Shown: one piece after another, positions 3,194 through 31,118 of the stretch | Layout of the letters: every line of letters starts with the position of its first letter | How positions within the stretch are numbered: position 1 is the first letter of the stretch | Virus record (IMG/VR): IMGVR_UViG_3300036985_006499 | Coordinates: 1 to 31,118 of that record | Source of the DNA: a virus | Direction: 5' to 3' (one strand) | DNA: 31,118 nt | Notes under the pieces: generated by a model | Seen by the model: the letters and a program-made list of their open reading frames with translations, nothing else | The model's database searches: none | Told to the model about the DNA's origin: nothing | Position numbers and translations under genes: made by a program

Positions 3194-3220
3194 TATAGCA
3201 AGTTAACTACTTTTGTAGAT

Positions 3221-3254
3221 TTACTGATTGGGCATGTCCTATGCCCAATAGTAA
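3221..3254 (+). promoter_or_regulatory. Hairpin after the capsid gene, no T-tract
   Basis: ATTGGGCAT (3227-3235) pairs perfectly with ATGCCCAAT (3241-3249) around a 5-base loop. After a one-base bulge (G3226), TTACT pairs with AGTAA, giving 14 pairs. No T-run follows, so it is not a classical intrinsic terminator. It may attenuate transcription or protect the capsid mRNA 3' end. Structure seen; role inferred. Confidence 0.6.
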
Positions 3255-3265
3255 GTCCATAAACA

Positions 3266-3442
3266 ATGTTTTTAGACAAATTAAAATTTGATAGCAATGA
3301 AATAAATCTTCACATTTTTGGAGTTAATGATAACAAAGAAGATGAGCCAGAATTTATTCAAGTAGATTTTAAGTGTGATGAATGTGGGTTTGTGGCTAAA
3401 AACGGTAATGGTTTAAGGATGCATAAAAAGAAACATAAATGA
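3266..3442 (+). CDS. Single C2H2 zinc-finger protein, 58 aa
   Basis: ATG 3266 to TGA 3440-3442, 58 codons; the stop overlaps the next start as ATGA. The C-terminal third is a textbook C2H2 finger, CDECGFVAKNGNGLRMHKKKH, with C37-x2-C40-x12-H53-x3-H57, Phe two after the second Cys and Leu in the usual hydrophobic position. Residues 1-36 are acidic with no motif I recognise. The tail KKKHK is basic, so nucleic-acid binding is plausible. Its place between the capsid and head-tail connector genes is unusual. It could be a minor head protein, a packaging factor or a late regulator. Confidence is high for the gene and metal site, low for the function. Confidence 0.8.
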   Translation: MFLDKLKFDSNEINLHIFGVNDNKEDEPEFIQVDFKCDECGFVAKNGNGLRMHKKKHK

Positions 3443-3942: not shown

Positions 3943-4412
3943 TAAAGTTTGAAGTTATCGGTTTAGAAAATTTAAAAAAAGGATTACTTAGATTTTCACA
4001 AATAAACAAAATTGCTTATGATTGGATGAAATCAGGACAGCCGGATGAGATAATGAATAAAAGTTTTCAAAAAAACTTTACTTCTCAAGGAAGACCTAAT
4101 AAGTGGAAAGCTCTATCTCCCATAACTAAAGAAGAAAGGAAAAAATTAGGTTTTGGAACAGCTCCTATACTTAGAAGAACAGGAAATCTATATGATGAAA
4201 TAACTTCTATGATCGGGAAGAAAGCTATCAGTTCTAGGGAATCTTCTGTAGAATGGGGAATAAATCAATTAAGAAAAGAAGAGCAAGGTAAGTTTGCAGG
4301 ACATCAATTAGGAAAAAGAACTCCCAAAAGACAAACTTTAGGATTTCAAAAAGAAGATAAGACAAGATTAGTAAGAAGTTTAAGGGAATGGATTTTTAAA
4401 CAAGTCATATGA
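3939..4412 (+). CDS. Tail completion protein (Mu gpG / virion morphogenesis family)
   Basis: A 157-aa basic protein. The run F-x-SQGRPNKWKALSPITKEER, followed by ILRRTGNLYDEI, matches the phage virion morphogenesis family (Mu gpG-like, P2 gpS-like), which has a 'G..W..L...T......IL..TG.L..S' signature. These proteins join completed tails to heads. The C-terminus (GKRTPKRQTLGFQKEDKTRLVRSLREW) also fits: family members end with an 'R.P.R..LG' element. It overlaps its neighbours by 4 bases each, so it is translationally coupled within the connector set. Confidence 0.82.
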   Translation: MIKFEVIGLENLKKGLLRFSQINKIAYDWMKSGQPDEIMNKSFQKNFTSQGRPNKWKALSPITKEERKKLGFGTAPILRRTGNLYDEITSMIGKKAISSRESSVEWGINQLRKEEQGKFAGHQLGKRTPKRQTLGFQKEDKTRLVRSLREWIFKQVI

Positions 4413-5878: not shown

Positions 5879-5893
5879 AAACTTTAATATAGT

Positions 5894-5938
5894 CTATGGG
5901 GGAGTAACGCTGATGATACTCCCCCATAGCTCATCAGC
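5894..5938 (+). promoter_or_regulatory. Two mutually exclusive hairpins before the tail chaperone gene
   Basis: A perfect 13-bp stem pairs 5894-5906 (CTATGGGGGAGTA) with 5917-5929. Its 10-base loop contains GCTGATGA (5909-5916), whose exact complement TCATCAGC follows the stem at 5931-5938. The only link is one base (C5930), too short to span a 13-bp helix, so the two pairings should exclude each other. This A-B-A'-B' arrangement is that of an attenuator or riboswitch-like switch. It ends 6 bases before ATG 5945. The pairing is seen; switching is inferred. Confidence 0.65.
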
Positions 5939-13362: not shown

Positions 13363-13917
13363 ATGGCTTGGACATCACCAAAAACATGGTCTTATAAAGA
13401 AACTTTGTCATCTGTAGACCTTAACACCTACGTTAAAGATAATATGAATTATTTAAAAACACTTCTTCCTGCTGGTGTTATTCTTCCTTATGGAGGAAGC
13501 TCTGCTCCTGCTGAGTTTTTGATATGTGATGGAAGTGCTGTTAGTAGAACAACCTATGCAACACTTTTTTCTGCTATTGGAGATTCTTATGGTATTGGAG
13601 ACGGATCTTCAACATTTAATCTTCCTAATTTAAAAGGTAAGGTTCCTGTTGGTAAAAACTCTGCAGAAACAGAATTTGATTCACTTGGAGAAGCAGGAGG
13701 ATCTAAAGTTGCAGCAACACATACTCATGCAGTTTCCGGAAATACTGGTAGTACTCCTAGTAATTTAGCTGGTGTTGATGGATATGGAGAGGGAACAGAA
13801 GTGGCACAAGGTCGTAGTCCAGGACACAGTCATACAGTTTCTATTACCTCTGCTGCAGGCGGAGATGTTTCTATATTGCAACCATATGTCGTTACAAATT
13901 TCATTATAAAATATTAG
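13363..13917 (+). CDS. Phage tail collar domain protein
   Basis: A 184-aa protein with the tail-collar signature. Residues about 36-100 read LPAGVILPYGGSSAPAEFLI, C-DGSAVSRTTYATLF, then a G-DGSSTFNLPNLKGKVPVG segment, close to the collar family of T4 gp12 and many fibres. The second half contains HTHAVSGNTGS and GHSHTVSIT; such His pairs are the metal-binding or loop elements of these tips. It ends with the family's 'QPYVVTNFIIKY'. Likely a tail fibre tip or host-recognition subunit. It is the last gene of the late operon and is followed at once by the bidirectional terminator. Confidence 0.87.
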   Translation: MAWTSPKTWSYKETLSSVDLNTYVKDNMNYLKTLLPAGVILPYGGSSAPAEFLICDGSAVSRTTYATLFSAIGDSYGIGDGSSTFNLPNLKGKVPVGKNSAETEFDSLGEAGGSKVAATHTHAVSGNTGSTPSNLAGVDGYGEGTEVAQGRSPGHSHTVSITSAAGGDVSILQPYVVTNFIIKY

Positions 13918-13960: not shown

Positions 13961-15220
13961 CTATTTTAGTGAATCTGTTATTAATTTATCCCAATCTTTT
14001 ACTATCTTTTCCCAAGTTATATTATCAATTACCCATTGATAAGCCTTTTCTTCCATTTCTTTCCTAGTATCATAATGAGAATATGCCCATAACATCTTTT
14101 CAACCATATCGTCAATATTGGCTGTTGGTCTGATCAAACTATTATCCATTGGACCATTCATTGTTAAGTGGTTTGGCTTATCTCCTGATTCATACAGGAT
14201 TCCCCTGTCATCAGCTAATATTTCTTTTAAGGAAGTATTATTAGGAAATACATTTAGCGTTTTTGCTGCCATAGATTCAGAACAACTTAACCCCCATCCC
14301 TCTCCAAGAGTTGTTGAGATATTTATATCAGCAATATTATAGAGAGAATTTATGAAGGAATCATTAAATCCTTTTCCTTGATTAAATGTTTTTGGATTTG
14401 GATACAGCCAATTGTCTAATATTCCTAATTGTTCAGCTACTTCTATTAAATTTCCACCTCTATCTCCAATAACATCACAATGAGTATACAATACAGAATT
14501 AGGAACGATTGATCTAAATATCTTGAAAGCCAATAGAGTATGGAATAAGTTTTTTCTTTCCTGATTTCTATTTACATTAACCATTAAAAAATTATTTTTA
14601 AGGTTGTTTTCTTTGAAAAACTTATTTCTAAATTCCTCTTTTTCTTCCTCTGTTAGTTGGTAGTATGTTTTTGTATCTACTCCATGATACATAACATGAT
14701 ACTCTCTATCAAGTATTTCCTTTGATTTCTCCATTGCATAATTAGTATATGGACAGGCTATGTCTGCAAATTTTACTGATTTTTCAATCCAGTCTTTCTT
14801 TGGTTTTGCGTCAATCGGATAGTAATATATCCATTTGAATCTTTGTCCTTTTTGAAGTATTTTCTTACCATCTTTTTCAATAATTAATCCGTCACGAAGT
14901 TTTTTAATATGCTCTCCGATAGTAGCCATTACGAATGTGTCCTGAAGAGTGAATAAAACATCGAATTTATCATCCTTATTTCTTAGCAAGTCAAGCAATC
15001 TTTGCCTTCCATATACATCATTTTGTTGATTGATGCTTGCCGGATAAAGTTTATAGGGCAAATCATGCGGATCTCCATAATAATTTATAGCAACTACGCT
15101 TATATCATATTTTCCAGTTTTATGAAGTCCATTTAGAATTTCTTTGCTTACATGTCCAAATCCAGTAGAACAAGTTGGAGAATCTCCATAAAAAAGCAAT
15201 TTTATTTTTTTATCTTCCAT
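13961..15220 (-). CDS. GT4-type glycosyltransferase
   Basis: A 419-aa GT-B fold glycosyltransferase. The N-terminal half opens with LLFYGDSPTCSTGFGHVSKE, a Gly-rich acceptor-side loop. The C-terminal half carries NVNRNQERKN (214-223, with the Arg/Lys that hold the nucleotide phosphates) and the E-x7-E motif at E307 and E315 in LGEGWGLSCSESMAA. Such enzymes move a sugar from a nucleotide-sugar with retention of configuration. It is cytoplasmic, with no membrane segment. It is the last gene of the minus-strand block and follows a 64-base inverted repeat. With the GT2 and methyltransferase genes upstream it probably builds or trims a glycan; the acceptor is unknown. Confidence 0.85.
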   Translation of the reverse strand: MEDKKIKLLFYGDSPTCSTGFGHVSKEILNGLHKTGKYDISVVAINYYGDPHDLPYKLYPASINQQNDVYGRQRLLDLLRNKDDKFDVLFTLQDTFVMATIGEHIKKLRDGLIIEKDGKKILQKGQRFKWIYYYPIDAKPKKDWIEKSVKFADIACPYTNYAMEKSKEILDREYHVMYHGVDTKTYYQLTEEEKEEFRNKFFKENNLKNNFLMVNVNRNQERKNLFHTLLAFKIFRSIVPNSVLYTHCDVIGDRGGNLIEVAEQLGILDNWLYPNPKTFNQGKGFNDSFINSLYNIADINISTTLGEGWGLSCSESMAAKTLNVFPNNTSLKEILADDRGILYESGDKPNHLTMNGPMDNSLIRPTANIDDMVEKMLWAYSHYDTRKEMEEKAYQWVIDNITWEKIVKDWDKLITDSLK

Positions 15221-22967: not shown

Positions 22968-22996
22968 ATTATACTCTAAATTTATTATCTTGTCAA
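22968..22996 (-). promoter_or_regulatory. Consensus sigma70-type promoter upstream of the accessory block
   Basis: On the minus strand TTGACA (22996-22991), exactly 17 bases and TATAAT (22973-22968) match both boxes fully. It sits between the helicase stop (22999) and the 59-aa ORF. The start site is expected near 22961, just inside that ORF. It could drive the deformylase and glycan genes independently of the replication genes. Confidence 0.75.
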
Positions 22997-22998
22997 AT

Positions 22999-25344
22999 TT
23001 ATTGATATGGCTCATACATTTCTCCCGTCAATTGCTTTAAATTGAGCTTTCCAGAACCTATTCGACCATGTCGATTCTTGTTAATAATGGCTATTAATGG
23101 TATATCTTCTCCTGTCCTATATTTTTCAATTATATCTTCTTCAGAACCTTCTCGCTTGAGATAAATAAACAAATCAGAAGCAGCTTTTATAGCTCCTGAT
23201 CCTTTACCGGAAACATTCAACATATTTCCATTTTTATTATCTTCATTAGAAATTTGAGAAAGAATTACAGTGGTAGTTTTTAGTTTTCTGGTAGAGTTTT
23301 GTATTTTTTTAATCGCATTAGTCAATAATGTATATTCATCTCTAGCTTGTCCGGAAACATTTTGGATATAATCTAAGAAAAACACATCCACTTGTTTCTT
23401 AAAATTTTCAACTTTCATAGTTGCAATAATTTTATCAACATCAAAACATTCAGAATAAATTTTCATTTCTTTTTCTCTAAGTTTTGTTTTAGCCATTGAT
23501 TGCAGATGATATATTTCATTGTCTGTCAATCCTTTTTTAATCTGTATCGGAGACAAACTTGTTTCTATTGCTAATAGTTTTCCAACAATATCTTCCTTGC
23601 TCATTTCAAGAGAAAATACTACCACTTTTTTATTTTTGTCTAAAAGATTTTTAATCAAATTACACATCATTGAACTATTATGATTAACAATGAAATTATC
23701 AAGCAGGTATAAATTATCTCCATCTAATGTAAAACCTCTATATTCTCCAATCCCCAATGATTCTACTTTAAATCCAGTAGTTAAGTGATTTCTTGTAGAA
23801 GAAAACTTTTTAATTTTTTTCCTTTTTATTCTAATTGGAATTTTCCAAACTGGTCCACCGATATAAATTCTATAACTTTTACATACTTTTCCATTTGAAA
23901 AATTGGTAATAGATTTTCTTATTTTTTTAGTAACTCTAAAACCAAGAGACAGTGCTACAAACTCAACATCATTTGCTATATATTCATCAATAGTTGAATA
24001 TTCATAAGCATAATTTCCACTAGCATTACCATCAGAATCTATTAATCCAGCAAGTAATTCTAATCTATTCTTTCTTGAGTTTATTTTATATATATTTGGA
24101 ATGTGTTTATTTTTTAATAAATTTAATTTATTTAAAGTTCCTTGTAATGAATCTTCACTTCTTGTTAATTTTTTATTTTTTCTTGTAATTGAAAGTGTTT
24201 TACATAATCCATTGTTATTTACATGCAGTTTCATTTTTAATTTTTTTGCATATTTTTTTAAATCTAATTCAACTTCATTATCAGGATTAGTTATTCTTAC
24301 TGATTTAGCATCACCATCACCAAGCCAAACTCCTAAAAAATAAGGGTCAATTAATAGTTTTTTTTCTTTAAACTCAATTGGCTTTCTGTATAACTTACTT
24401 CTATGCTTAAATCCATTACTTGATTTTAAATAATTTTCAACAGAAATATTTGTGATCTCTCCTTTTTTATTTGTCCAAATTTTATCTCCTGACATTCCAG
24501 TTCTTTTAACAGATAGTATATGTTGACTATTAACAACAAAATCAGAACCATAATATGGTTTAATTTTATACATATTATCCTTACCTCCACAAATACTCAA
24601 AACATTTCTAGGCTTACTATCTTGACCCATAACCTTATCACCAACAATAATATTTTCAATTTTTTTAATAGAACCATCATACATTAATATTTTTGTTCCT
24701 AGTCCATGACATTTTCCAACGCTAGTAAACGCAGTTATTGTCCACAAATGTTCTTCTCTATATCCGTCAATAGCTGCATCAATAAATCCATAACCGCAGG
24801 GAATTCCAATGCTTAATTCTCCATCGGCTTTCTTCAAAGAATATGCCTCTTGACTTGCAGTATAATCGTCTAATATTTCATCTATTGATGTTCTTTTTTC
24901 ATTGTCATCATCTATTGTTCCTAGTATTTTTTCAATATCTTCACAAACTGTTTTTTTATCAATAATTTTTCCAAGATTTATTTTCTCATATTCTTTTCCA
25001 AAAAACTCATAAAACATCCTAAGACTTCCTTTTTCCAAAACTATCTCAGCATAATGTTCCACCTGAGAATCTGTTGTGTGGTTTTTACAAAGTTCTGCCA
25101 AATAAGACGATCCTCCGATAAATTCCAAGTTATTATTTTTTTCAAGATAATCGCTAACAGTAATTATGTCAGAAATAACCTCATTTTTGTATAAATTTAT
25201 AATAGCATCGTAAATAACACTATGTTTTTCCCAATAAAAGCTTGATTTTTTGAGCTTTTGTGCTATTAGGTCTATCTTTTTAGAACCCGATAGCAGTGAA
25301 CCCAAAATATATTTCTCCGCTTCTAAGTTTTGTAAGTTGTTCAT
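22999..25344 (-). CDS. dnaB: DnaB-type replicative helicase with intein
   Basis: The precursor is 781 aa; without its intein (residues 212-556) the helicase is 436 aa, a normal DnaB size. The N-terminal domain (NLEAEKYILGSLLSGSKK) is typical, as is SDIITVSDYLEKNN. The P-loop reads AFTSVGK (205-211), the intein, then SSMMCNLIKNLL. Downstream are VVVFSLEMSKEDIVGKLLAIE (H1a-like), VDVFFLDYIQN (Walker B), ILSQISNE (H3) and KNRHGRIGS (H4 with the Arg/Lys finger). DnaB unwinds the fork 5'-3' as a hexamer. The start follows a small ORF by 16 bases in the same operon as the initiator. Only the spliced form can bind ATP. Confidence 0.92.
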   Translation of the reverse strand: MNNLQNLEAEKYILGSLLSGSKKIDLIAQKLKKSSFYWEKHSVIYDAIINLYKNEVISDIITVSDYLEKNNNLEFIGGSSYLAELCKNHTTDSQVEHYAEIVLEKGSLRMFYEFFGKEYEKINLGKIIDKKTVCEDIEKILGTIDDDNEKRTSIDEILDDYTASQEAYSLKKADGELSIGIPCGYGFIDAAIDGYREEHLWTITAFTSVGKCHGLGTKILMYDGSIKKIENIIVGDKVMGQDSKPRNVLSICGGKDNMYKIKPYYGSDFVVNSQHILSVKRTGMSGDKIWTNKKGEITNISVENYLKSSNGFKHRSKLYRKPIEFKEKKLLIDPYFLGVWLGDGDAKSVRITNPDNEVELDLKKYAKKLKMKLHVNNNGLCKTLSITRKNKKLTRSEDSLQGTLNKLNLLKNKHIPNIYKINSRKNRLELLAGLIDSDGNASGNYAYEYSTIDEYIANDVEFVALSLGFRVTKKIRKSITNFSNGKVCKSYRIYIGGPVWKIPIRIKRKKIKKFSSTRNHLTTGFKVESLGIGEYRGFTLDGDNLYLLDNFIVNHNSSMMCNLIKNLLDKNKKVVVFSLEMSKEDIVGKLLAIETSLSPIQIKKGLTDNEIYHLQSMAKTKLREKEMKIYSECFDVDKIIATMKVENFKKQVDVFFLDYIQNVSGQARDEYTLLTNAIKKIQNSTRKLKTTTVILSQISNEDNKNGNMLNVSGKGSGAIKAASDLFIYLKREGSEEDIIEKYRTGEDIPLIAIINKNRHGRIGSGKLNLKQLTGEMYEPYQ
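23677..24711 (-). mobile_element. LAGLIDADG intein in the helicase P-loop
   Basis: Residues 212-556 of the helicase (345 aa) form the intein. It starts at Cys212 (CHGLGTKILMYDG), has the block B His in VNSQHILSV (271-279) and ends VNHN (553-556) before the +1 Ser557. Splicing joins VGK to SSM and restores the P-loop. Two LAGLIDADG helices, LGVWLGDGD (337-345) and LLAGLIDSDG (430-439), show a homing endonuclease with both acidic residues, so mobility is plausible. Phage and bacterial DnaB P-loops are known intein sites. Confidence 0.9.
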
Positions 25345-25636: not shown

Positions 25637-26565
<929 letters not shown>

Positions 26566-26580
26566 ATATTTTTATAATTA

Positions 26581-26665
26581 AAAAAATCAACTTGAGCCAA
26601 CACTAGACTAAACCAAGGTAAATGAAAAACCTATAAAATCTAGTGTTGACTTAAATTGATTTTTT
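26581..26665 (-). promoter_or_regulatory. 27-bp hairpin in the initiator leader, terminator-like
   Basis: Arms 26581-26607 and 26639-26665 pair over 27 positions around a 31-base loop. On the minus strand only one pair is an A-C mismatch and two are G-U; on the plus strand two are mismatches, so the minus-strand RNA folds better. The 3' arm on that strand ends in seven T (26586-26580), 15 bases before the initiator ATG at 26565. This is the shape of a leader attenuator, or of an operator. The rest of the 179-base gap (26666-26744) shows nothing else I can name. Confidence 0.7.
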
Positions 26666-26744
26666 GATTTCATTTTATCAGGTTTAAGTTGTTTATACTA
26701 TTGCACATTTGATTTTATATGTCAAATGTGCTAAGTTTAAAAAA

Positions 26745-27677: not shown

Positions 27678-29345
27678 TTAATTAATTGTTAGTTTATCGG
27701 TTGAAACTTTGCATATGAAGTTTTGGATAGAAATATTTGGAACAGTGTCTATTACTTCTGAGTTGTCTAGGAAATATATTCCTATTTTATCTTTCAAAAA
27801 TGAATCTATTATTTGTGATAAGGCAATATCTATCTTTGTCCTTTCTCCTAATGACATTTTTGAGTATTCTTTGTTTCCAGAAAAAATCTTGAATACTTCC
27901 TTGTAGCTTAATCCGTTTTTAAGAAGTTCTAATGTAGATATATTTGCTTCCGGTATAAACTCTCTGAACTTTTCTATGATCGGTTTTAATTTGATGTCCA
28001 TTTCTCTGGCCGGTATTCCTTTAGGAGAAAAGATACTTATCAACTGAGTGTACATATCATTTTCTGTCCTGATGCTTGAAATAGTGCTTTTGAGTTTATC
28101 GACCTTTAAAACTCTTTCTTCTTCTTGTTTTTTTAATAATTCTATTTTGGATTTTTCTGATAAGTATTTCTGTTGTTCTTCTTCTAATTTTCTAAACTGA
28201 TCATAATCAACATTTATTTTTTCAGGTATGTTTTCTAACGGATAAATATTTCTTATCTTAGCTGACAATACATTTATCCTATTTTTATTATTTTCGTTTT
28301 CATTATACTCTTTTTCTTTTGAAAGGAAAATAAATTCTTCCTTGTCTATTTCTTCTTGAAGTTTTCTAGTTTCGACAGCAACCTTATTATTAGCTTCGTC
28401 AATTTTATCTTTATGTTCAGGGAGAATATCTTGTAAGCATAGCGGACATTTTCCTTCAGGGAGGTTAATTGTTTTCGATAATTCATTTTTTTTATTTGTT
28501 AAATTATTAATTATTTCTCTTGACGGTTTTTCTATTTCAAGTATTTTTATCTGATCTATTTCTTTTAAGATGGTATCGTTATTTTTTATTATTTCTTCAT
28601 TATCTCTCATCTTTAAACTTCTTGTTTCCCAAAGGGCATCTATCTTTCTTGAATTTTCTATAGCAACTTTCATTTCAGCTATCTCCTTTGACTTATCTTC
28701 GTATGGGTTTTTAGTAAGTTCAATTTTAACTGAATCTTTAAGAAGTGCGTTTATTCTGATAAGTTCATCATCATTTTCTTTTTTTTCTTTTAGAAACTTC
28801 TTATGATTTCCTTCAATGTTATTAAAATCAGTTCCAAATAACCATTCATCTTTACCTCCTAGTTCATAATATATTTCGCTTTTATCGATAGATGGAGTCA
28901 ATGATAGTATAAACTCTCTTTTTTCATTATCTGATAACCTCATAAAATAGCCTATGTTGAAAACAGCTTGAAAAACCTCATAAGAAGGAATTATTGAATC
29001 CAATTCTCTTTGAGTTATTATTGAATCATCTTCTGATTGTGAATTATCGCAGTAAGTTATTCTTGTTTGCTTATCTGTCCTTTCTCTTTTTACCGTATGA
29101 GTTATTCCATCTTTTTCAAACTCAACTTCAACCAAGCATTTTACTTTTCCGTTAGAGATATACTTGTTTGATTCTGTGGATGATCCTTCTGAGGTGCGAT
29201 TATAGAAACAAAAAATTATTGCATCTTTGATAGTTGATTTTCCAGATCCGTTATATCCGGAGATGTTGTTTGAATCCTTAAATTCAAATAGTTTTTCTTC
29301 TTCAAACTTTTTAAAATTGATGATTTTTACTTTATTGATTTTCAT
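27678..29345 (-). CDS. Rad50/SbcC-type zinc-hook ATPase
   Basis: A 555-aa SMC-like ATPase, close to the size of T4 gp46 (560 aa). It has Walker A GYNGSGKST (30-38), a coiled-coil region with the zinc hook CPLC (300-303) in its middle, the ABC signature MSLGERTKIDIALSQ (497-511) and Walker B IGIYFLDNSE (521-530). Walker B has Asp-Asn (D527-N528) where most members have Asp-Glu, so hydrolysis could be slow. Its usual partner is an Mre11/SbcD-type nuclease; none is visible in the window. It should tether and process DNA ends in phage replication and recombination. It overlaps the upstream small gene by 14 bases. Confidence 0.86.
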   Translation of the reverse strand: MKINKVKIINFKKFEEEKLFEFKDSNNISGYNGSGKSTIKDAIIFCFYNRTSEGSSTESNKYISNGKVKCLVEVEFEKDGITHTVKRERTDKQTRITYCDNSQSEDDSIITQRELDSIIPSYEVFQAVFNIGYFMRLSDNEKREFILSLTPSIDKSEIYYELGGKDEWLFGTDFNNIEGNHKKFLKEKKENDDELIRINALLKDSVKIELTKNPYEDKSKEIAEMKVAIENSRKIDALWETRSLKMRDNEEIIKNNDTILKEIDQIKILEIEKPSREIINNLTNKKNELSKTINLPEGKCPLCLQDILPEHKDKIDEANNKVAVETRKLQEEIDKEEFIFLSKEKEYNENENNKNRINVLSAKIRNIYPLENIPEKINVDYDQFRKLEEEQQKYLSEKSKIELLKKQEEERVLKVDKLKSTISSIRTENDMYTQLISIFSPKGIPAREMDIKLKPIIEKFREFIPEANISTLELLKNGLSYKEVFKIFSGNKEYSKMSLGERTKIDIALSQIIDSFLKDKIGIYFLDNSEVIDTVPNISIQNFICKVSTDKLTIN

Positions 29346-29580
29346 TTTTTTCTTTTAATTTATTAGCATAGTTTTTTCTCCAAACTTTTACACGATCTTT
29401 ATTTCTGGTTTCATACATCCTTTTATACATCATTTGGGCTTTTTTAGCGTGTTCTTTACAGCAATATTTTCTTATTTTTTGTCCTTCTTGTTTTACTATA
29501 GGATTATTACATCCTGGTAATTGGCAAGAAAAATATTCTTTGTAGTTTCGTTTCGAAAGTTTTTCGTATATTTCTTCCAT
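29332..29580 (-). CDS. Small Cys/His-rich protein, 82 aa
   Basis: An 82-aa basic protein with a Cys cluster: C19 and C24 (SCQLPGCNNP), then C44-C45 and H49 (YCCKEHAKK), a spacing that could form a zinc finger of the type often found in small phage proteins. The C-terminal 40 residues are helical and basic (MYKRMYETRNKDRVKVWRKN), which fits DNA or RNA binding. It overlaps the start of the Rad50-like gene by 14 bases and so may be made with it. No family recognised. Confidence 0.55.
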   Translation of the reverse strand: MEEIYEKLSKRNYKEYFSCQLPGCNNPIVKQEGQKIRKYCCKEHAKKAQMMYKRMYETRNKDRVKVWRKNYANKLKEKNENQ

Positions 29581-29589
29581 GGCATAGTA

Positions 29590-29778
29590 TTAATTAATTA
29601 TTTGATCATCATTTTTTATTTTCCAAAAATATAGGCACTTATCTTTTTCATTAGGATTCTTTTTTTTAATTCTTGGGCTTCCTATAAAGTAAGATTGATA
29701 TTCATCAGGTATTGCCTCATGACGAAAGCACTGATGTTTAAGTTCGCATTCTTCGTCATTACATTTAGTTATGTCCAT
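29590..29778 (-). CDS. Small Cys-rich protein, 62 aa
   Basis: A 62-aa protein starting MDITKCNDEECELKHQCFRH, with four Cys/His in the first 20 residues (C6, C11, C17, H20), and a single Cys at residue 48 (KCLYFW). Proteins with a 'C....C.....C..H' start and a later 'C.YF' are frequent in phages; they are of unknown function and may hold a metal or an iron-sulfur cluster. It is the first gene after the structured 413-base region and starts with the leader AAATTAAATTAAGTTT. Confidence 0.6.
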   Translation of the reverse strand: MDITKCNDEECELKHQCFRHEAIPDEYQSYFIGSPRIKKKNPNEKDKCLYFWKIKNDDQIIN

Positions 29779-29796
29779 AAACTTAATTTAATTTAC

Positions 29797-29896
29797 TTAA
29801 ACCATTTAAATCCGAAGACATTAAACTCTGCAGAATTGTAGGACTAGGCGTAATCCATTGACGAACCATTAACATCTTCGGGTTTGAATGGTCTAA
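29797..29896 (-). ncRNA. Hairpin 1 of the structured region (22-bp stem)
   Basis: 29797-29818 pairs with 29875-29896 over 22 positions with three differences, around a 56-base loop. On the plus strand two are G-U and one A-C; on the minus strand one is G-U and two are C-A. The loop repeats CCATT twice (29854-29868 region). Confidence 0.65.
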
Positions 29897-29903
29897 ACTA
29901 ATA

Positions 29904-29979
29904 TATCCTAAATCTAGGAGGCGTTCGGGAGGTAGCTACCTGATACCCCAGAGACTCCCCATCTCCTAGATTTAAGATA
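29904..29979 (-). ncRNA. Hairpin 2 of the structured region (17-bp stem with inner stem)
   Basis: 29904-29920 pairs with 29963-29979, 17 positions with one difference that is a G-U on the minus strand. Inside, GGGAG (29927-29931) can pair with CTCCC (29955-29959), and a perfect 12-base palindrome AGGTAGCTACCT lies at 29930-29941. Confidence 0.7.
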
Positions 29980-29980
29980 C

Positions 29981-30071
29981 ATAACTTATTGCTGATGACA
30001 GGATTAGACAAAAAGCATTTCTGCTGTCTGCCTTATTCTTCGGCAGAATCCAACCATCAGCTATAAACTAT
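29981..30071 (-). ncRNA. Hairpin 3 of the structured region, three-way junction
   Basis: 29981-29997 pairs with 30055-30071 (14 of 17; two of the three differences are G-U on the minus strand). Inside, GGATT (30001-30005) pairs with AATCC (30047-30051), and this encloses two further stems: AGAC/AGCA with TGCT/GTCT (30006-30029) and TGCC with GGCA (30029-30045). This is a cloverleaf-like junction but not a tRNA. Confidence 0.65.
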
Positions 30072-30156
30072 CTATCTAAAAATTAAGGCAAGTTATCACT
30101 GTTCCATCAACTATAGGAGTCATACAGCTACTTGATATTACATTTATTACTACTAG

Positions 30157-30175
30157 AGATATTGTTATAGACATA
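30157..30175 (-). repeat. 19-bp direct repeat, copy A
   Basis: AGATATTGTTATAGACATA on the plus strand, exactly repeated at 31005-31023. On the minus strand it reads TATGTCTATAACAATATCT and includes TATAAC, 5 of 6 of a -10 box, but I see no good -35 box. It lies just downstream of a gene's stop on the minus strand and upstream of the structured region. Possibly a promoter or operator. Confidence 0.7.
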
Positions 30176-30191
30176 GGATTATTTTAAAGAG

Positions 30192-30395
30192 TTAGAGATA
30201 AAGTTCTTCTTTTATATGTTTAAATAATTTTTTAAGCGTTTTTTCGCAAAACATAACGTGTCTTCCGTATCCTTGATTTATATCCACACAAAATAACTTA
30301 TCCTTGTATTCATAACTTCCAACGCCTATTTTCTTTACTTCTCTTACTTTCTTTATTTTAATTGTATAAAGATTAAATTCTTGTTCCTTCTTCAT
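30192..30395 (-). CDS. Small hypothetical protein, 67 aa
   Basis: A 67-aa basic protein (MKKEQEFNLYTIKIKKVREV) with a beta-like centre (GVGSYEYKDKLFCVDINQGYGR) and a helical end (KTLKKLFKHIKEELYL). No known family. It follows the beta-helix gene by 11 bases with an AATTAAATAACT leader, and is followed by copy A of the 19-bp repeat. The compact composition and close spacing support a real gene. Confidence 0.6.
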   Translation of the reverse strand: MKKEQEFNLYTIKIKKVREVKKIGVGSYEYKDKLFCVDINQGYGRHVMFCEKTLKKLFKHIKEELYL

Positions 30396-30406
30396 AGTTA
30401 TTTAAT

Positions 30407-30982
30407 TTAATGATTTAGTATTTTACCATCAACTAACTTTCCTTTTTCAGTTAGGAGTTTAATAGCTTTTTCAACCTCATCATCTACTTCTTCAAATTTA
30501 GATTCACCCTTGTAAATCAATTCTTGTCCTTCGTTTTCTTTGTATTTAATTTCTTCTTTGTCATATCTCATACCGAAGAAATAACCTGATATAATTTTTA
30601 TTTTACCAGAAAACTCCGCATTACCAGAAACCATCGCATTACCAGAAACCCTCGCATTATCATAAACCCACGCATCACCAGAAACCTTCGCATAACCATA
30701 AACCCTCGCATTATCATAAACCTTCGCATAACCATAAACCTTCGCATTATCATAAACACTTGCATTACCATAAACCTCCGCATTACCATAAACCCACGCA
30801 TTACCATAAACACTTGCATTATCAGAAACCCACGCATTACCATCTTTACTTAAATTTTCTTCTTTCTCTATCCATCCACCTAACTCTCCTTTTTCAACAT
30901 TTCCAAAAGACATTTCTGCTTTAATTTGGAATAAAGTTACTCCACAGTATTCCTTTTTATTTTTTGTTAGACTATACTTCAT
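30407..30982 (-). CDS. Hexapeptide-repeat beta-helix protein, 191 aa
   Basis: A 191-aa protein. Residues 1-47 (CGVTLFQIKAEMSFGNVEKG, then GGWIEKEENLS) form a fixed head seen in many phage and gut-bacterial proteins of this type. Residues about 48-125 are imperfect 6-aa repeats, mostly [GD]-N-A-x-V-[YS], which should fold as a left-handed beta-helix (YdcK-like). The last 55 residues are a mixed, acidic tail. Its DNA is a tandem 18-bp repeat, so copy number may vary between strains. The role is unknown; beta-helices of this size occur in transferases and structural proteins, but no catalytic His is visible. Confidence 0.78.
   Translation of the reverse strand: MKYSLTKNKKEYCGVTLFQIKAEMSFGNVEKGELGGWIEKEENLSKDGNAWVSDNASVYGNAWVYGNAEVYGNASVYDNAKVYGYAKVYDNARVYGYAKVSGDAWVYDNARVSGNAMVSGNAEFSGKIKIISGYFFGMRYDKEEIKYKENEGQELIYKGESKFEEVDDEVEKAIKLLTEKGKLVDGKILNH
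30598..30843 (-). repeat. Imperfect 18-bp tandem repeats encoding the beta-helix
   Basis: About 13 imperfect 18-base units run through the middle of the beta-helix gene (on the plus strand of the type ACCATAAACCTCGCATT with variants). Because the unit is a multiple of three with no stops in other frames, a second frame also stays open (an artefact). Confidence 0.8.
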
Positions 30983-31004
30983 ATATTTTTTAATTTAATT
31001 TATT

Positions 31005-31023
31005 AGATATTGTTATAGACATA
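31005..31023 (-). repeat. 19-bp direct repeat, copy B
   Basis: Exact copy of 30157-30175, placed between the stop of the right-edge partial gene (31024-31026) and the start of the beta-helix gene (30982), at 23 bases from that start. Both copies follow AATAAT on the minus strand with 0-4 bases between. The shared placement after a gene end and before the next unit suggests a common control site. Confidence 0.7.
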
Positions 31024-31118
31024 TTATTCTCGGTTAAAAAATTCTTCTATGTTTTTTTCTGAGTATTCCATCGCCTTAAAGGCTGGGATAATCAACTTAT
31101 CAGCTACATCGCTAAGAC
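31024..31118 (-). CDS. C-terminal end of an unknown protein (partial)
   Basis: The minus-strand frame enters from the right edge and ends at TAA 31024-31026. The 30 visible residues (LSDVADKLIIPAFKAMEYSE, then KNIEEFFNRE) are helical and give no family. The stop abuts copy B of the 19-bp repeat. It is the first gene upstream of the beta-helix gene on this strand. Confidence 0.55.
   Translation of the reverse strand, partial: LSDVADKLIIPAFKAMEYSEKNIEEFFNRE

Follow-up and report, generated by a model that had tools for sequence, protein, structure and literature searches.

A three-hairpin array ahead of an early gene block in an uncultured phage: an orphan RNA element that is most likely a cis-acting leader

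The window (the whole stretch of 31,118 nt that was analysed, a phage contig of 31 kb from IMG/VR that carries early genes as well as genes for capsid and tail) contains a real, strongly structured RNA element of the phage early operon, which is most likely a cis-acting leader. It consists of three abutting hairpins, H3, H2 and H1, whose core occupies 29796-30067 on the minus (transcribed) strand, and it is an orphan, its sequence being known from one phage among those searched. Our best explanation, which we put forward tentatively, is that the array is an intercistronic structured 5' leader of a leftward early phage mRNA, protecting or separating the downstream message.

Structure of the array

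The 272-nt core folds on the minus strand with a minimum free energy of -96.3 kcal/mol, against -65.3 kcal/mol for dinucleotide shuffles (z -6.6, with 0 of 150 shuffles as good), and the plus strand lies equally far out (z -6.6, again 0 of 150). A sequence-only reading of this DNA had described three long hairpins in the region 29779-30191 and had proposed folding against shuffles as a check; the hairpins are there, and the 413 nt of the region also surpass all of 100 shuffles on each strand (-110.9 kcal/mol, z -3.4, on the minus strand; -100.9 kcal/mol, z -4.5, on the plus strand). The whole structural signal, however, sits in 29796-30067: the segment 5' of H3 (30069-30173) is without structure (z +1.0), and only the core with its three hairpins, as opposed to all 413 bp, is remarkable. 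Folded singly, the hairpins reach z values of -3.6 to -5.3 (0 of 150 shuffles each), and their main stems pair with mean probabilities of 0.89-0.94.

On the minus strand, H3 (29985-30067) has an imperfect outer stem of 17 pairs, two of them G-U, formed by the arms 30067-30048 and 30004-29985 (z -4.3, 0 of 150), and encloses a junction with two inner stems, as had been read from the letters. H2 (29901-29982) joins 29982-29960 to 29923-29901 by 22 pairs, three of them G-U (z -4.3), and holds inner stems together with the 12-base palindrome AGGTAGCTACCT (29930-29941), which lies partly within one of these stems; both features had likewise been seen before. H1 (29796-29897) joins 29897-29869 to 29824-29796 by 27 pairs, four of them G-U (z -5.3), and its apical region of 44 nt holds a 6-bp inner stem. 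The earlier figures need some adjustment: stem lengths of 22, 17 and 17 were right in substance and become 27, 22 and 17 when longer extension is allowed, and the hairpins do abut, with gaps of 2 and 3 nt instead of 7 and 1. A search for kissing loops and for pairing between a loop and the start gave nothing better than 8 nt, with a p of 0.02 before correction for nine tests.

That both strands fold well is what any inverted repeat must give, and it is the mismatches that bear on the nature of the molecule. When ungapped stems of the phage group were scored symmetrically, 66 G-U pairs were found on the transcribed strand against 44 A-C mismatches, and the two stems of the array found in that scan have 10 against 3. 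The previous remark that stem changes are G-U on the minus strand had the direction right (G-U to A-C is 5:2 in H1 and 5:1 in the long stem on the H3 side). The minus strand is thus slightly favoured, by its G-U pairs and by energy, and the array leans to RNA on account of these mismatch types.

When 415 intergenic segments of 272 nt from nine phage genomes are placed on one scale, the core ranks first (z -7.9, the best control reaching -6.35). The five strongest segments all belong to the phage group (the core itself, L029 13574, G005 41341, L029 14978 and position 26519 of the window, L029 and G005 being related phages), and in each of them the better strand is the one used by most flanking genes. 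We rejected the idea of a higher overall hairpin density in the group, control phages being similar: a window-based scan gave 1.0-2.6 single intergenic hairpins per 10 kb in the group and 1.5-2.4 in the four control phages.

Genomic context

The region 29779-30191 is gene-free, as had been claimed, in that it has no open reading frame of at least 60 aa; it contains an unsupported 32-aa frame at 30174-30076 (minus), within the unstructured 5' segment, and similar short ones. Co-oriented minus-strand genes lie on both sides and the next start is near, as in a structured 5' leader or intercistronic element: upstream is a 67-aa gene (30192-30395), and downstream come a 62-aa gene (29590-29778, with a weak match to phrog_20586, function unknown), the gene of an 82-aa protein (29332-29580) and that of a Rad50/SbcC-like ATPase of 555 aa (27678-29345). 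The stop of the 67-aa gene is separated from H3 by 124 unstructured nt (30068-30191), whereas H1 ends only 17 nt before the ATG at 29778, leaving an AU-rich, unpaired spacer (29779-29795) without Shine-Dalgarno (SD) motif; these two distances place the array on the start side of the gap.

No terminator-like site was found in 29500-31118, and H1, which is followed by TAAATTAAATTAAGTTTATG, does not qualify as an intrinsic terminator. Nor was a sigma70-like site of at least 10/12 found in 28.3-31.1 kb, in a scan that non-consensus phage promoters would escape; in other gaps of the window such sites occur at 22996 (12/12), 437 and 26725. Since sigma70-like sites are, window-wide, no commoner than in shuffled sequence, the absence of a promoter is weak evidence either way. 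Neither an own promoter nor an own 3' end, as a stand-alone phage sRNA would have, was found for the array, and the suggestion of a free RNA or a sponge finds no support, since neither a good promoter, a terminator, a homologue nor covariation could be demonstrated.

The unstructured 5' segment carries a 19-mer, TATGTCTATAACAATATCT (30157-30175, minus), with an exact second copy at 31005-31023 (minus), both sitting right behind a gene's stop. This direct repeat flanks the 67-aa gene and a beta-solenoid (YdcK-like) gene, and may be a regulatory site common to both places or may delimit a cassette of two genes that was exchanged. The beta-solenoid (B_solenoid_ydck) is encoded by 13 copies of an 18-bp repeat (30603-30843, minus), and in G005 the homologue of its C-terminal part adjoins a 441-nt gap.

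The lack of an SD motif is general, 35 of the 37 genes of the whole window being without one, and the starts are A-rich (A at -6 in 29 of the 37 genes, T at -1 in 26). A Bacteroidota host is only hinted at by such starts, and sigma70-like promoter boxes would be a misfit for a host of this kind. Flavobacterium has SD-less starts whose efficiency varies with mRNA structure and upstream adenines (PMC6847099).

Search for relatives

No Rfam family, ROOL and GOLLD included, matched the window at the gathering threshold (the best sub-threshold hit, E 0.84, was a nematode snoRNA), none reached the gathering score in 132 kb of kin sequence, and the window has no tRNA, tmRNA or tRNA island, which agrees with the statement that the array is neither a tRNA nor a known phage RNA. 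Cultured phages show no DNA similarity to it, and scans of viral contigs for the exact H2 arm and of genome contigs for both H2 arms as a pair came back empty. Covariance models, each built from the single sequence of H1, H2 or H3, recovered only themselves from kin and control phages; a 28-base match to the H2 model (E 0.39) was put down to chance. The three hairpins are mutually unlike, and no second copy of them was found in the window, in kin or in genome contigs. Because no homologue was found, no covariation count is possible for the array stems, and the proposal of a candidate new phage RNA, if understood as a conserved family, goes further than one sequence can carry.

Kin were found mainly through the capsid protein, which gave ten loci at 62-70% identity and no match in bacterial genomes. 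Searches with single Rad50 and DnaB sequences gave nothing, a Rad50 alignment retrieved just G005 and remote ATPases, and the 62-aa protein matches nothing in viral contigs and just one cultured phage, a remote one with two records. G005 (51,289 bp) is the sole kin phage that also covers the early region, with identities of 43-44% for the Rad50-like protein, 40% for a 308-aa protein, 46% for the 82-aa protein and 39% for DnaB. Its Rad50 block is preceded by a 149-aa gene and by a gap of 212 nt that is weakly structured and contains a perfect sigma70-like promoter; the array is absent from this syntenic gap. An intein that carries a LAGLIDADG homing endonuclease splits the DnaB-like helicase of the window (22999-25344, minus); at 436 aa, the homologue in G005 has no room for it.

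Structure before start codons in the phage group

In a comparison of five group members with four control phages, z falls below -3 in 34% of the segments that immediately precede starts in the group, against 13% in the controls (p 0.002, an optimistic value since the group sequences are not fully independent), whereas after stops the proportions are 29% and 24% (p 0.50). Within the window, where distances were read from the sequence, hairpin 26576 ends 10 nt before the start at 26565, hairpin 15247 26 nt before 15220, hairpin 5938 6 nt before 5945 and hairpin 3256 9 nt before a short ORF at 3266, and hairpin 18000 ends about 10 nt before another short ORF.

An H-type pseudoknot lies at 5891-5938 (plus) between two structural genes, ahead of a gene of the tail region, with a counterpart in the related phage L030 (about 4190-4240, plus). 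Its pairing, read from the letters, joins CTATGGGGGAGTA to TACTCCCCCATAG in the stem and the loop GCTGATGA to TCATCAGC in the window, and CCTTGGGGGATAGA to TCTATCCCCCAAGG and TTGCTCATG to CATGAGCAA in L030. An ATG follows each version after 4-6 nt, and both helices show compensatory changes between the two phages. The pseudoknot, which is absent from G005 and L007, is a promising candidate as a new cis-regulatory RNA. A hairpin behind the major capsid gene (3218-3256, plus, in the window) recurs in all the kin, namely G005, L007, L009, L011, L014, L016, L017, L029, L030 and L031; most kin share an ATAGGGC/GCCCTAT core, the stem sequence differs in the window, in G005/L031 and in L029, and in several kin a start codon follows soon after. 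Judged by their sequences, these two elements support the class of element and not the array itself.

Other gaps are also structured. The one before the O-like initiator gene (26566-26744, minus) has a 10-bp palindrome, GCACATTTGA/TCAAATGTGC, overlapping a TTGACA box and followed by a 32-position hairpin that ends 10 nt before the start; it is the second strongest intergenic fold of the window. L029 has a three-hairpin array of its own upstream of an endolysin gene (13578-13730, plus; z -10), one hairpin having an inner junction, without sequence similarity to ours, and a capsid-protease operon leader (15085-15195, plus) that folds intricately and has a sigma70-like promoter at 15030; GCTGTGGG and CCCACAGC of this leader could form a pseudoknot.

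Interpretation

Among the options offered by the sequence-only reading (a free RNA, a sponge for host factors or a leader controlling the Rad50-like module), the evidence agrees best with the leader, given that the first start of that gene block comes 17 nt after the array and that no terminator belonging to the array was found. The observations on which we build are the fold, its excess over shuffles, its position, the lack of a terminator and of an SD motif, and the start-side enrichment in the group; transcription through the region and effects on processing, stability and translation are what we infer from them. A transcript coming from the small genes to the right would continue across the region and fold into a compact three-hairpin block, with no more than the 17-nt AU-rich unpaired stretch left between this structure and the ATG of the 62-aa gene. 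This gene opens the block of 62-aa, 82-aa and Rad50-like genes. The array would most likely act in cis: it would shield the downstream mRNA from ribonucleases, would likewise shield the new mRNA 5' end after a cleavage upstream of or inside the block, and would shield against ribosomes continuing from the preceding gene, while the SD-less start site would stay single-stranded.

Also in favour of a leader are the non-terminator intergenic hairpins elsewhere in the window, which end 6-26 nt before a start, the first rank of the core among the 415 segments together with the group membership and strand preference of the five strongest, the two other types of intergenic element in which compensatory changes between kin preserve the pairing, and the 66:44 ratio of G-U to A-C in group stems. 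Against it, and against proven selection on the array structure, stands the lack of any homologue; against it also count the plus strand, as far beyond shuffles as the minus strand, the G005 gap, which has a promoter instead of the array, and the equal density of single intergenic hairpins in control phages.

A stable trans-acting RNA of about 270-400 nt, with its own promoter or cut from the operon RNA and serving as decoy, regulator or scaffold, would agree with three nearly spacerless hairpins stronger than any other intergenic region compared, with the exact 19-mer repeat just upstream, which could mark a phage promoter, and with the precedent of cabRNA, a structured RNA of roughly 400 nt from phages, whose binding partner is a defence enzyme of the host (PMC10686824). 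We think it unlikely, given that neither a good promoter nor a terminator was found, that Rfam was empty, that the methods used turned up no homologue in kin, in control phages or in public contigs, and that the array is missing from a kin phage that has the neighbouring genes. We would give still less credit to a multi-hairpin phage RNA of a new type, cut from or embedded in the early mRNA as a compact domain (a processing-resistant leader or a trans-acting RNA), with sequence-unrelated counterparts in kin such as L029 13578-13730 and G005 41341-41862. The least probable proposal is a regulatory leader with two alternative folds, in which transcription speed or a ligand would decide downstream expression. 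The segment 30068-30088 can indeed pair weakly with the 5' arm of H2 (about 29965-29984), extending H3, and in growing transcripts this longer H3 appears first (-43.4 kcal/mol for a transcript reaching 29955) and H2 later; but an extension as good arises by chance in about 2.5-4% of trials (10 of 400 shuffles of the flank, 25 of 600 flanks drawn at random), it was noticed post hoc, the final fold is far more stable, and neither state forms a terminator or covers the start site.

Two further explanations dispense with RNA. In one, the array would act as DNA, as a cruciform or single-strand hairpins for replication, packaging or recombination, perhaps tied to the SbcC/Rad50-like protein, whose gene adjoins it, and the equal excess of both strands over shuffles would be natural. 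We regard this as improbable: arm spacers of about 40 nt make cruciform extrusion unlikely, G-U exceeds A-C on the transcribed strand, the terminase genes are far away in kin, and a better candidate for an origin exists. The origin is probably, as in lambda O, at 26162-26236, where six exact 12-bp iterons (6.2 copies of AAAGTGTTAGGT) lie inside a gene weakly matching O-like initiators (phrog_678), which makes a replication role of the array less likely, and no tandem repeats occur in 29779-30191. In the other, which we consider slightly less credible again, the array is leftover or mobile palindromic DNA, now functionless, captured between genes. Its presence in one phage only, its absence from the syntenic gap of G005 and its G+C of 0.40, where most other long gaps have about 0.2-0.3, would suit such an origin, but the hairpins do not resemble one another, no second copy of them was found in the window, kin or genome contigs, and their mismatches lean to G-U on one strand.

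Beyond the array itself, these results point to a wider pattern in an uncultured phage group with unusually strong RNA structure before starts, at least two of the elements showing compensatory changes, and in the window with its mostly SD-less genes. Group-wide structured leaders before SD-less starts are a more testable lead than the array alone. If confirmed, this would mean that phages of SD-less hosts tune expression inside long operons by RNA structure and not by ribosome-binding strength.

Comparison with known systems

Known phage leader and intercistronic elements are usually single hairpins. Our array resembles such elements of phage mRNAs, whose post-transcriptional control has been reviewed for T4 (PMC3014915), in having strong hairpins between cistrons or before starts in a long phage operon, and differs in its three long hairpins abutting at 2-3 nt, one with an inner junction. 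The CBASS-activating RNA (cabRNA) of staphylococcal phages, also of about 400 nt and with several hairpins, derives from the terS/terL coding sequence and is defined by binding and activating the host CdnE cyclase (PMC10686824), whereas the array derives from an early-region gap and is known here from sequence alone. Compared with ROOL and GOLLD, large structured RNAs encoded by phages and prophages (PMC12286853), it is shorter, matches no Rfam family, is not in a tRNA island and forms no conserved family. A further parallel is in the window itself: the pseudoknot at 5891-5938 is kept with compensatory changes in L030, whereas the array was not found elsewhere, and both are structured RNAs that end a few nucleotides before an SD-less start.
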